A DNA stretch of 36,606 nucleotides from a virus: positions 1 through 36,606 of the IMG/VR virus record IMGVR_UViG_3300044701_001961; one strand, 5' to 3'. Positions 21,733 to 36,606 of this stretch are shown here, piece by piece. The notes under the pieces are model-generated. The model did no database searches, was not told where the DNA came from, and saw nothing but the letters and a program-made list of their open reading frames with translations. How positions within the stretch are numbered: the first letter of the stretch is position 1; the number at the start of each line of letters is the position of its first letter. The position numbers and the translations under genes were made by a program.

Positions 21733-21936
21733 TCAGTTCGGTTCGGTGGTTGCCTGCTTCTCCAGCCCTAGCTCTGCGGAGAACCGCTTGCGGGCCAGCG
21801 CTGCCACCACGCGATCCGCAATGCGGTCGGGCAGCACATCGGGCCAGTTAGATACCGCCTGGTAGGTGACGCCAATCTCCTTGGCTGCGGCGGCGACGGT
21901 GCCGCCAAGGAGTTCAATGGCTTTCGTCTTGAGCAT
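21733..21936 (-). CDS. cro: Cro-like repressor (YdaS/Cro helix-turn-helix)
   Basis: 67 aa, MLKTKAIELLGGTVAAAAKEIGVTYQAVSNWPDVLPDRIADRVVAALARKRF. The helix-turn-helix is visible as 'TVAAAAKEIGVTYQAVSNW', residues about 13-31. It is divergent from cI and starts exactly where its promoter predicts transcription to start, 7 nt after the -10 box, with no ribosome binding site, so a leaderless mRNA is expected. It should compete with CI for the operators at 21944-22015. Confidence 0.9.
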   Translation of the reverse strand: MLKTKAIELLGGTVAAAAKEIGVTYQAVSNWPDVLPDRIADRVVAALARKRFSAELGLEKQATTEPN

Positions 21937-21942
21937 GCTCTT

Positions 21943-22015
21943 ATTGAACCACGGTTCAAGTCTTGAGTCAACTGATGTTCAAGACTTTTCTGCTACCGTC
22001 TCAACGATGGTTGAA
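21943..22015. promoter_or_regulatory. cI/cro switch: leftward (PR-like) promoter and three operators
   Basis: The minus-strand promoter has -35 TTGACT (complement 21966-21971), a 17-bp spacer and -10 TTCAAT (complement 21943-21948). Operator 1 (21944-21959) is TTGAACC-AC-GGTTCAA with perfect 7-bp arms and covers the -10. Operator 2 (21967-21982, minus-strand reading TTGAAC....GTTGAC) covers the -35. A weaker site at 22000-22015 (11 of 16 matches) covers the cI start codon. Operators 1 and 2 are 23 bp apart. A plus-strand extended -10 TGC-TACCGT (21991-21999) ends 8 nt before the cI ATG and is the best candidate for the cI promoter. Confidence 0.85.
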
Positions 22016-22666
22016 TACTGGGATCGCCTACGACCCCTGATGGAAGCGCGCGGCTTAGACAAGGCCGGACTGGCGCGCCTGATCGGCGTCAGCTACCAAG
22101 CGGTGGACAAGGTGTCTAAGGGCGGGGCTTTTGGCTCAGCCAACAACATCAAGGCGGCGGCGGCGCTTGGGGTCACGCCGACCTGGCTGGCCACCGGCTA
22201 CGGCGACAAGCACCCTCCCTTCTCTGCCCAGTCAAACGTCGAACCCGCCCCTGACGTTGTAAGCAAAAAGGTCGTGCCCGTTGTAGGGGAAGTTAAAGGT
22301 GGGGAAGATGGGTTCTTGGACGAACTGCAGTACCCCGTTGGCCACGGCATTGGCACCGTGGAATTCCCCACCAGAGACCCCCAGGCTTACGCCCTGCGGG
22401 TGCGTGGGGATTCGATGCACCCGCGCTACCGCACCGGGGAGTTCATCGTCGTCTCGCCGAGCATCGAGCCGCAGCCTGGCGACGATGTGGTGGTCGCCCT
22501 ACGGGACGGCCGCAAGCTCCTGAAGGAGCTGAACTGGCTGCGCGACGGCGACGTGCAACTGCTCAGCGTCAACAGCGACTTTGCACCCCTGACGGTGGCC
22601 TCGGCCGAGGTGGAATCCATGCACCTCGTGGAAGGCCGCGTCCGCAGGGCCGTCTTTCGACCATGA
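22007..22666 (+). CDS. cI: CI-like repressor, HTH plus S24 peptidase-like domain
   Basis: 219 aa from MVEYWDRLRPLMEARGLDK at 22007. The N-terminal helix-turn-helix is about residues 14-38 ('LDKAGLARLIGVSYQAVDKVSKGG'). The C-terminal S24 domain has Ser136 in GDSM and Lys173 in RKLLKEL, 37 residues apart as in LexA (Ser119/Lys156). The hinge reads VPVVGEVKGGEDG, so the Ala-Gly cleavage pair expected about 35 residues before the Ser appears as Lys-Gly-Gly. No ribosome binding site precedes the ATG; a leaderless transcript is likely. It represses both early promoters. Confidence 0.95.
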   Translation: MVEYWDRLRPLMEARGLDKAGLARLIGVSYQAVDKVSKGGAFGSANNIKAAAALGVTPTWLATGYGDKHPPFSAQSNVEPAPDVVSKKVVPVVGEVKGGEDGFLDELQYPVGHGIGTVEFPTRDPQAYALRVRGDSMHPRYRTGEFIVVSPSIEPQPGDDVVVALRDGRKLLKELNWLRDGDVQLLSVNSDFAPLTVASAEVESMHLVEGRVRRAVFRP

Positions 22667-22691
22667 GCACAGCATGAATTTTAGGAATGGC

Positions 22692-22880
22692 ATGACCCGT
22701 CTTGCACGAGCCTTTCTGGGTCTCGTGTGGGTTATCTGGCTCGTTGTGGCAGTTACTGATAGCAATGCCGCAAAGGCGGGCGAGCAACTGTTTTACATGC
22801 TGCTCTTCACGGCCGGATACATGGTGTCCTGCAAAGCCATTGCATGGGTCTACAACGGATTTTTCCCCAAGCAGGAATGA
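22692..22880 (+). CDS. Small two-helix membrane protein downstream of cI
   Basis: 62 aa from MTRLARAFLGLVWVIWLVV at 22692, which has AGGA 6 nt upstream; an in-frame ATG at 22674 lacks a good site. Two hydrophobic segments are visible: residues about 7-22 ('AFLGLVWVIWLVVAV') and about 35-52 ('LFYMLLFTAGYMVSCKAIAWV'). It is the second gene of the cI transcript and ends before a strong terminator, so it would be made in the lysogen. Membrane proteins in this place often affect superinfection. That role is only inferred. Confidence 0.75.
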   Translation: MTRLARAFLGLVWVIWLVVAVTDSNAAKAGEQLFYMLLFTAGYMVSCKAIAWVYNGFFPKQE

Positions 22881-22967
22881 GACCTGCTCTGCGCTAACAC
22901 CCTGCTCCAGCGTGGCGCAGCTTTAGCAGCGCTTAAATTGGTCTAGCAGCACTGGCCCCCACCGTAC

Positions 22968-22993
22968 AGCCCGCCCAGCGCGGGCTTTTTTTT
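22968..22993 (+). terminator. Rho-independent terminator of the cI operon
   Basis: AGCCCGC-ccagc-GCGGGCT stem followed by an unbroken run of eight T. It isolates lysogenic transcription from the rightward early operon. Confidence 0.95.
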
Positions 22994-23018
22994 CGTCCCT
23001 ACTTGTGAAGAAACGGCA

Positions 23019-23036
23019 GCGTGAGTTTCCTCACGC
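23019..23036. repeat. Perfect inverted repeat GCGTGAG-tttc-CTCACGC
   Basis: 7-bp arms with a 4-nt loop, 40 bp upstream of the first operator of the rightward early promoter. There is no U-run of terminator quality. It may be a second terminator, a binding site or a barrier element. Confidence 0.6.
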
Positions 23037-23075
23037 CGGTTTGGTAGGGGTTTTCCCTTATTTTGAACTTATTTG

Positions 23076-23115
23076 TTGAACCGTGGTTGACACTGTGGTT
23101 TAACCGTGGTTCAAT
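23076..23115 (+). promoter_or_regulatory. Rightward early (PL-like) promoter with two CI operators
   Basis: -35 TTGACA (23087-23092), 17-bp spacer, -10 TTCAAT (23110-23115). Operator A is TTGAACCGTGGTTGAC (23076-23091, 14 of 16 matches to TTGAACCGTGGTTCAA) and operator B is TTTAACCGTGGTTCAA (23099-23114, 15 of 16). Start-to-start spacing is 23 bp, and each operator ends one base inside the -35 or -10 box, exactly as at the cro promoter on the other strand. Confidence 0.92.
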
Positions 23116-23144
23116 TCAGTCATCGCAACCCCACGGAGACCGCG

Positions 23145-23492
23145 ATGTACCTGATGCCCCCGGAACAGTCGGATCGCCTCTACCACCAGGCGCTCCACGG
23201 CTACGAGCAAGAGACCAAGGACGCCGTTGCCGCCTGGTCGCTCGGCGACAACACCGCCGAGGTCTACGCCTTCAACCGCACGCTCAACCGCACGGTTCCC
23301 GTGCCGGTCGCCACCGCCCTGTACGACGCGCTGGACGACCAAGAGCTGATCGACCAGTGGCTTGACGTGCTGCGCAAGTCCAACTGCTCGCATGTGGCCG
23401 CCCTGCGCACCGCACTGGCCCAGCGCCACATCAAGGTCAACGGCGAGTTCATCGCCGAAGACCGCGCAGGCAACTACGACGCGGAGGACTGA
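23145..23492 (+). CDS. First gene of the rightward early operon, unknown function (115 aa)
   Basis: 115 aa, MYLMPPEQSDRLYHQALHGY, with GGAG 6-7 nt before the ATG and a leader of about 23 nt from the predicted start. The protein is helical and acidic ('DRLYHQALHGYEQETKDAVAAWSLGDNTAEVYAFNRTLNR'). It stands where lambda has N, but no Arg-rich RNA-binding segment is visible, so an N role is not supported. Function unknown. Confidence 0.85.
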   Translation: MYLMPPEQSDRLYHQALHGYEQETKDAVAAWSLGDNTAEVYAFNRTLNRTVPVPVATALYDALDDQELIDQWLDVLRKSNCSHVAALRTALAQRHIKVNGEFIAEDRAGNYDAED

Positions 23493-33353: not shown

Positions 33354-34961
33354 CCCCATGCCGCCCGCTTGACCACCCATCGTCAGGAAGCGAGACACAT
33401 TCGGCCCAACCAGATTTGGGGCTACACCCCGAGAAGCACCCGATGCCAAGCCGATCACCGGGCTGCTTGCGTATGCTCTGGTCGCCAAGTTGATGGGCAG
33501 CGAAAGCATCAACTCCATCGGGTTCGTGACCATCGACCGGGTAGCGGTTCCAGAGTCCCCAACAATCGGACGGAATGCCTGCGACACCCGAGCGGCGTTG
33601 TAGAGGTCAGATTGGTTGCCGTTGAACAGGAAGCCCTGCCGGTCGCGTGCCTGCAGCGTGCTGGCAAGGTTTGCCCCGCTGATGTTGCCAGTTGAAGGGT
33701 TCACGACGCCTTGCCGCCCCGTCAGAAGCATCAAGTTGCGGTACTCACCTCGAGCATTCTGGAATGCCTTGAGCGTTTCCCCGGTGAGAGAACCTTCTAG
33801 ATAGTCATCTACTAAGTCTTTCACCTGGAACAATGCCCGGCCTAGTTCACGGTCGCCATTGCCAGAAGTCATCTGGTTGTGCGCCGCCTTGTTCAACTTG
33901 CTCGTCAGGGTGGCAAGTTGCGCCTGGGTGGCGTTGCCAGACTCAGCAAAGGACAAGAACCGCTTGACCAGCGGGTTATCCGACAGAGAGACCGGAAGCA
34001 GACCTTCAAACTCCGACTCAACACCGCTCAGGCGCGTCAGAAAGTCATCAGGGTCGATACCAACGGGCTTGTTGCCACGGACAAGGCTGTAGACGCCACC
34101 AATGCGGTCATGGGCACGCTGAAGAACCGTGGAATCTACGGTGTCAGCAGTCTCACCGATGGCCTTGGCAGCAGCGCGGTTCACAAGCCGCTGGTTGTTT
34201 TCCTTGATGGCATTGAAGGTTCCCGAGGTCATTGGCTGGCTCTCCAGCTTTGCCTCCAGTTGCTGCAGCGCACGGGAGCCGGATGCCTGACCCGGAGTGA
34301 ACCGATAGCCATTGGCACGCGCCCAATTCATAATGCTGCGCTGGCTGTCGCTCAGTGCACCCACATCGGTCGGGTCAACAGAGCCAAACCCAGCGCCGCC
34401 ACCGCGCACCATCGCTTGCGGGTTCGCTTGCACGGACGCAGAACTGCCCGCCATTCCCGGCCCTGCGTTGACAGTCGCAGCGTTGCGCGTACCACCCAGA
34501 ACCGTAGACAGACCGCTGGCGATCTTCTGACCCGCAACACCACCAGCACCGCCAAACACGGAATTGGTGACGGTTTCTCGCGTATCTACAGAGGGCTGAA
34601 GCGCCCCCATAGCAGCACCCGTGATACCAGCCCCAAGGGTTGTATTGGCACCCGGGATCATTGCCGCAGGCATAGCCATAGCGGCCTGACCCAAGATGTT
34701 GCCAACCGTACCAGAAGTGGTACGCATCAGCGGCGTGTCTAGCCTGCGGGCTTCCTGAACATCCTCGCGGGTGACAAGCGGCTCAATCTTGCCGTTGCGA
34801 ATGGTCGGAATGACTTGACCCACACCACGAGCGATGTCTGTCATGCCCTTGCCAACACCGGCCAAGAATCGGTCGGTGACGCTCATCCCCTCTGTGGGGT
34901 CAATGGCTTGATTGGGTCGAGCGTTCCACGGCCCAGTTTGGTATTCCTCCCAAGGCTTCAT
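33333..34961 (-). CDS. Large internal virion / DNA ejection protein
   Basis: 542 aa from MKPWEEYQTGPWNARPNQAI at 34961, whose ATG overlaps the previous stop (TAATG). The N-terminal 'VTDRFLAGVGKGMTDIARGVGQV' is a leader typical of podovirus ejection proteins. It is followed by a Gly/Ala-rich hydrophobic segment, residues about 85-120 ('GQAAMAMPAAMIPGANTTLGAGITGAAMGAL'), that could insert in a membrane. The C-terminal 350 residues are helical and repeat the pattern 'LTSKLNKAAHN...LGRALFQVKDLVDDYLEG'. No lytic transglycosylase motif is seen. It probably forms part of the trans-envelope DNA channel. Confidence 0.85.
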   Translation of the reverse strand: MKPWEEYQTGPWNARPNQAIDPTEGMSVTDRFLAGVGKGMTDIARGVGQVIPTIRNGKIEPLVTREDVQEARRLDTPLMRTTSGTVGNILGQAAMAMPAAMIPGANTTLGAGITGAAMGALQPSVDTRETVTNSVFGGAGGVAGQKIASGLSTVLGGTRNAATVNAGPGMAGSSASVQANPQAMVRGGGAGFGSVDPTDVGALSDSQRSIMNWARANGYRFTPGQASGSRALQQLEAKLESQPMTSGTFNAIKENNQRLVNRAAAKAIGETADTVDSTVLQRAHDRIGGVYSLVRGNKPVGIDPDDFLTRLSGVESEFEGLLPVSLSDNPLVKRFLSFAESGNATQAQLATLTSKLNKAAHNQMTSGNGDRELGRALFQVKDLVDDYLEGSLTGETLKAFQNARGEYRNLMLLTGRQGVVNPSTGNISGANLASTLQARDRQGFLFNGNQSDLYNAARVSQAFRPIVGDSGTATRSMVTNPMELMLSLPINLATRAYASSPVIGLASGASRGVAPNLVGPNVSRFLTMGGQAGGMGLLNTLE

Positions 34962-36313: not shown

Positions 36314-36606
36314 TTAGTAGACGTTACTTGCGTTCGCTTGCTGCCGACGTAGATAGTCCTCAAGCATGCCGTCAAACGATGACTGATCTGCCAGCAGGCC
36401 AGTTGGTTGCGCAGGAGCCGATGGCCGGTTCATGCGCGTCCAATCCACCTGTCCGTACATGCCACCGCCAAAGCGATCTGGCCATGTGGCGCGTTGCACC
36501 ACGCGGGTTACGGCATCGTTGGGTTTCTCAGCGATGTAGTTGTTCACCGCCGAGTTGAATGCGCCTTGAAACTGCTCTGGGGCAATCTTCCCGCTGTTGA
36601 GCTGGC
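36314..36606 (-). CDS. Internal virion protein, C-terminal part of the gene split by the window ends
   Basis: Continuation of the gene at 1-644; the stop is at 36314-36316 (ends QANASNVY). The terminal part contains 'VNNYIAEKPNDAVTRVVQRATWPDRFGGGMYGQVDWTRMNRP'. Bases 36480-36606 are the duplicated overlap. The methionine at 36547 is internal, not a start. Confidence 0.88.
   Translation of the reverse strand, partial: QLNSGKIAPEQFQGAFNSAVNNYIAEKPNDAVTRVVQRATWPDRFGGGMYGQVDWTRMNRPSAPAQPTGLLADQSSFDGMLEDYLRRQQANASNVY
36480..36606. repeat. Terminal direct repeat, right copy (circular overlap)
   Basis: Identical to 1-127, including the open reading frame. See the left copy. Confidence 0.97.

Follow-up and report, generated by a model that had tools for sequence, protein, structure and literature searches.

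The lysogeny switch of phage lambda is built on divergent cI and cro genes with three operators between them and, beyond cI, a further set of operators at an early promoter. Its repressor is of the S24 type, replication genes follow cro, and recombination genes and the integrase follow PL. The lambda operators are 17 bp long. OR3 is centred 19 bp and OR2 42 bp upstream of the cI ATG, 23 bp from each other, with OR2 near -42 serving PRM activation. In the immB regions of N15 and phiKO2, three 16-bp operators lie between the repressor gene and cro in an intergenic region of about 80 bp, Cro is all-helical, and OL consists of two sites 7 bp apart; the N15 OL is annotated at 34056-34094 in AF064539 as 39 bp holding two 16-bp sites with a 7-bp gap. 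The repressor CB of these phages lacks the cleavage residues (PMC4997575). In PY54, which is related to N15 and phiKO2, leaderless cI and cro mRNAs have been shown by RACE (PMC4488713). P22 has three palindromic sites between c2 and cro.

The stretch analysed here (the window) is the whole of IMG/VR record IMGVR_UViG_3300044701_001961, positions 1-36,606, 36,606 nt in length. A perfect 127-bp direct repeat occupies both ends of the record (1-127 and 36480-36606), and the assembly is therefore probably complete and circular, with a length of 36,479 bp. The record very probably carries a bipartite lysogeny switch of the lambdoid kind. Its five 16-bp operators, built on the half-site TTGAAC, would be common to CI and Cro. 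Site positions, promoter-like boxes, gene identities, conservation and the co-change with the recognition helices are read from sequence; from these, we infer binding by the two proteins and an order of affinities among the sites. The features of the region are as follows.

21733 to 21936, minus strand: cro, 67 aa, recognition helix TYQAVSNW; best PDB match by sequence and by fold is P22 Cro
21943 to 21982, minus strand: left module, 40 bp (16-bp operator, 7 bp, 16-bp operator, one T)
21943 to 21948, minus strand: predicted PR -10 box TTCAAT; TTNAAT is kept here in nearly all relatives
21944 to 21959: predicted operator O1, TTGAACCGTGGTTCAA, perfect palindromic arms TTGAAC-N4-GTTCAA, over the PR -10; 21.4 bits in the position weight matrix (PWM) scan
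21966 to 21971, minus strand: predicted PR -35 box TTGACT, 17-bp spacer to the -10
21967 to 21982: predicted operator O2, TTGAACATCAGTTGAC, over the PR -35 and also overlapping the PRM -35 region; 12.7 bits
21994 to 21999, plus strand: predicted PRM -10 box TACCGT, with TGC just before it (extended -10); predicted start at the A of the cI ATG
22000 to 22015: predicted operator O3, CTCAACGATGGTTGAA, centred on the cI ATG, located with a half-site scan; 18.8 bits
22007 to 22666, plus strand: cI repressor gene, 219 aa, helix-turn-helix (HTH; recognition helix VSYQAVDK) and S24 peptidase domain
22674 to 22880, plus strand: 68-aa open reading frame directly behind cI, in a rex-like position
22968 to 22986, plus strand: intrinsic terminator-like hairpin and T run, between cI and PL
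23076 to 23115, plus strand: right module, 40 bp (16-bp operator, 7 bp, 16-bp operator, one T)
23076 to 23091: predicted operator OL2, TTGAACCGTGGTTGAC, over the PL -35; 19.6 bits
23087 to 23092, plus strand: predicted PL -35 box TTGACA, 17-bp spacer to the -10
23099 to 23114: predicted operator OL1, TTTAACCGTGGTTCAA, over the PL -10; 20.0 bits
23110 to 23115, plus strand: predicted PL -10 box TTCAAT, predicted start at about 23122
23145 to 23492, plus strand: first gene of the PL operon, 115 aa, its leader containing a possible ribosome site

The gene products support the assignment of the two regulators. The CI S24 domain matches PF00717 (1.1e-16), and CI reads as an HTH-S24 repressor of the self-cleaving type, for which cleavage would be expected. 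Cro scores 28.5 bits against Pfam P22_Cro, just under the curated cut-off of 30.2, and its best match in a sequence search of the PDB is P22 Cro (E 0.001). The AlphaFold2 model of Cro (mean pLDDT 87) is all-helical, and a fold search with this model returns P22 Cro first (probability 1.00, E 0.01), followed by Xfaso 1 and N15 Cro. By sequence and model, Cro therefore appears to be P22/N15-like. A recognition helix YQAV is common to CI and Cro. Downstream of cro lie an O-like primosomal or replication gene and then a helicase, and the early genes downstream of PL include an Erf-like annealing protein and an integrase, a predicted gene order that has the lambda topology. Family searches gave no match for the 68-aa open reading frame or for the 115-aa first gene of the PL operon.

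The preliminary description of this DNA had proposed two mirror-image 40-bp modules of identical layout, and this holds base by base. The operator start-to-start spacing of 23 bp and the -35 and -10 boxes were found as described in both modules. The two boxes are 17 bp apart, and five of the six bases in each lie within an operator. At PR and PL alike, the -10 box TTCAAT does not have the usual A at position 2, a point that the preliminary description left unmentioned, and TTNAAT is kept in relatives at both promoters. A generic promoter scan of the window reported no promoter because it demands A at this position.

Short palindromes arise by chance, and the five sites could in principle be such chance or compositional palindromes; O3 alone matches the consensus arms at 9 of 12 positions, as do 20 places in the window. 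This explanation is negligible in probability. With a PWM built from other phages' sites, leaving out the window, a scan of the 36.6 kb found exactly five places at 12.7-21.4 bits, followed by a next site at 11.4 bits. These five are O1, O2, OL1, OL2 and, at 22000-22015, O3. The four sites of the preliminary description are thus real, and a third switch operator had been overlooked, making five in total; the scan shows none scattered elsewhere in the window. A search for the 16-mer with up to three mismatches gave five strand matches at three places, where 0.32 were expected, and none of 100 shuffles reached five. Any pair of sites at 20-27 bp was seen in one of 100 shuffled windows, even at a laxer cut-off. 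The conservation of the sites in relatives, together with a control set of 45 loci described below, also speaks against chance, and this reading was rejected once that conservation was found.

Relatives were collected from viral contigs and bacterial genomes by searches with the CI N-terminal domain, Cro and a Cro alignment. They are mostly prophages of Burkholderiales (Comamonas, Variovorax, Acidovorax, Achromobacter and others), and some are closely related to each other. Three loci (L050, L054 and L055) were first obtained from a DNA-pattern scan and so do not count as independent evidence that the sites are conserved; protein searches recovered two of the three again. The 52 non-identical cro-cI regions contain 2.31 exact-core sites per 100 bp, compared with 0.18 in shuffles. 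In the 34 relatives having both sites, the O1-O2 spacing is 23 bp (29 cases) or 24 bp (5 cases), and the O2-O3 spacing in relatives is mostly 32-33 bp. The register of O3 to the cI ATG is identical in all 31 detected sites, in a search that allowed one base either way. Counting the window, 30 phages have modules resembling PL downstream of cI, with two or three sites 22-24 bp apart, and the genes behind them differ; phages with PL pairs usually have no site upstream of the switch. A motif search in related prophages, which had been suggested earlier, is thus positive for the PR pair, the PL pair and the cI start-codon site in about 30 relatives. These switches appear to keep one plan: the cro promoter carries O1 and O2, the cI ATG carries O3, and a PL module follows downstream. 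They allow the CI/Cro operators of this family of uncharacterised prophages to be predicted exactly.

A whole-CI search mostly recovers phages that share just the S24 domain, and these were used as a negative control. Of the 46 whole-CI loci, 45 share only the C-terminal domain of CI, and none of these has an operator pair; such pairs occur only in L004, which shares the HTH. As a separate observation, the S24 domains of these loci (L005-L049), with up to about 60% identity, are joined to many unrelated HTH domains, a mosaic of repressor domain swaps.

The position of O3 on the cI start codon raises the question of whether the conserved sequence there is an operator or reflects a constraint on translation start or coding. 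It takes in the ATG and codons 2 and 3, and leaderless mRNAs depend on their own 5' end, both of which would fit a constraint of this kind. However, the CAAC at -5 to -2 is non-coding and would lie outside a leaderless mRNA, yet it is as well conserved as the coding half, with which it is palindromic. The Val-2 codon of cI is GTT in 29 of the 29 cases with valine at this position, while other valine codons are GTT in 96 of 574 cases (17%). This exclusive use of GTT indicates that the constraint on O3 acts at the DNA level. In addition, relatives with a different operator motif (the WAG class, below) carry the new motif at their third site, just upstream of the ATG. A constraint from translation start or coding is therefore very unlikely, and this reading was rejected on the conserved palindromic non-coding half and the exclusive GTT.

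Besides O3, the most conserved signal upstream of cI in 31 switch regions is TA...T at -13 to -8, which places the predicted cI transcript start at the ATG, so that the cI mRNA from PRM would be leaderless. The cro ATG is 6 nt past the PR -10 in the window and 5-7 nt past the TTNAAT -10 in most relatives; thus, cro is probably leaderless as well. In the window and its relatives, PL transcripts, unlike those predicted for cro and cI, are predicted to have leaders. With its centre at -32.5 relative to the cI start, O2 falls on the expected PRM -35 region, and activation of PRM from O2 in the lambda manner is therefore unlikely. The extended -10 of the window PRM (TGCTACCGT) may compensate for this. 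The family offers a test of whether PRM activation of the lambda type is dispensable in a lambdoid switch. Tentatively, we suggest that these switches form a distinct and widespread class: the O3 word of the CI/Cro switch would be at once operator, transcription start and first codons, and the structure would rule out activation of cI by its own product from O2; we regard this as somewhat more doubtful than probable.

In the proposed mechanism, CI dimers in a lysogen would occupy O1 and O2 and block the leaderless cro promoter PR on the minus strand, and dimers on OL1 and OL2 would block PL on the plus strand, the driver of the recombination and integration genes. O3 covers the start codon and the predicted +1 of the leaderless cI transcript, and cI would be shut off when O3 is occupied, either by Cro at an early stage of lytic growth or by abundant CI. 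Self-cleavage of CI triggered by the SOS response would then free PR and PL. Alternatively, CI could bind all five sites and Cro be specific for O3 only, repressing cI and not its own gene. Gel shifts show this behaviour of Cro in phiKO2 and PY54 (PMC4997575, PMC4488713), the Cro described here is of the same all-helical type, and O3 keeps its own distinct sequence (CAACNATGGTTGA) across relatives. On the other hand, the YQAV helix is common to Cro and CI, and the core arms of O3 are the same as at the other sites. Specificity of Cro for O3 alone is a serious but rather unlikely alternative to operators common to both proteins.

Compared with the known systems, the switch appears to be of the lambdoid CI/Cro type, with a layout closest to N15/phiKO2. 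The predicted operators lie between divergent cro and cI genes and over opposed promoters, the three switch operators follow one consensus, a second set is found at the early promoter beyond cI, and CI combines an HTH with an S24 domain. The equation of the two regions with lambda PR and PL therefore stands for gene identities and topology, but the layout is nearer to N15/phiKO2 than a strict copy of lambda. The operators are 16 bp and not 17 bp, the O2-O3 centre spacing is 33 bp and not 23 bp, and O3 lies on the cI ATG and not upstream of it. With N15/phiKO2 the switch has in common the 16-bp operator length, three operators at the switch plus an OL pair separated by 7 bp, a cro-repressor interval of about 80 bp and an all-helical Cro. 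Two OL sites are usual in this family, where lambda has three; L004, L075 and some others also have three. A third PL operator at the 22-24 bp spacing, as in lambda OL, is seen at L004:8106-8167 and L075:4692-4753. The operator arms TTGAAC-N4-GTTCAA differ from the TA-N10-TA motif of N15/phiKO2 (PMC4997575), the N15 OR3 is centred about 20 bp upstream of the repressor ATG and not on it, and the N15/phiKO2 OL controls plasmid replication, whereas PL here leads into an early operon with the Erf-like gene and integrase. P22 resembles this phage in the sequence and predicted fold of Cro and in its three palindromic sites, but its operators are of the ATTTAAG type and its OR3 lies just upstream of the c2 start codon. 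The kind of switch is known; what sets this variant apart is its operator word, the placement of O3 on the start codon and the 33-bp spacing of O2 and O3.

The exact half-site motif is absent from the literature searched, in which no paper on the operators of this switch family was found. A DNA search in phages gave only unrelated replication and recombination matches, and tblastn with Cro against 50,697 phage records gave no match. Acidovorax phage Aval has a related CI, but no TTGAAC operators were found in the portion of its switch examined.

Three operator classes, AAC, AAT and WAG, are found among the relatives. AAC operators pair with CI helices ending in K, and AAT operators with CI helices ending in KR in five of five cases, which represent few independent events. 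Phages with an SQA or PAA Cro and an SSA CI have GTWAG-N4-CTWAC operators at the same O1, O2 and O3 places, and at PL where it was found. The operators thus appear to change in concert with the CI and Cro recognition helices. To judge by its title, the work of Hall, Lefevre and Cordes (2005, J Mol Biol 350:667; cited in PMC4997575) reportedly concerns correlations between Cro helices and OR half-sites. By that title the principle would be shared, with half-sites following the recognition helix, and here it extends to five dispersed sites and both proteins within one phage family. The family can be seen as a natural experiment in the joint change of repressor helices and five dispersed operators, and it offers one testable co-change step, from K to R in the CI helix with C to T in the half-site. 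The GTWAG-N4-CTWAC class with Cro helix SQA and CI helix SSA is seen in the switch regions of L100, L106, L107, L113 and L114.

Two further elements were noted around PL. The first, 40 bp upstream of the PL module at 23017-23038, is a hairpin with a 9-bp stem that is terminator-like on the minus strand. The second is a TCCATCGC-like stretch at the predicted PL start (23116-23127), conserved in the PL modules of relatives despite their differing downstream genes.
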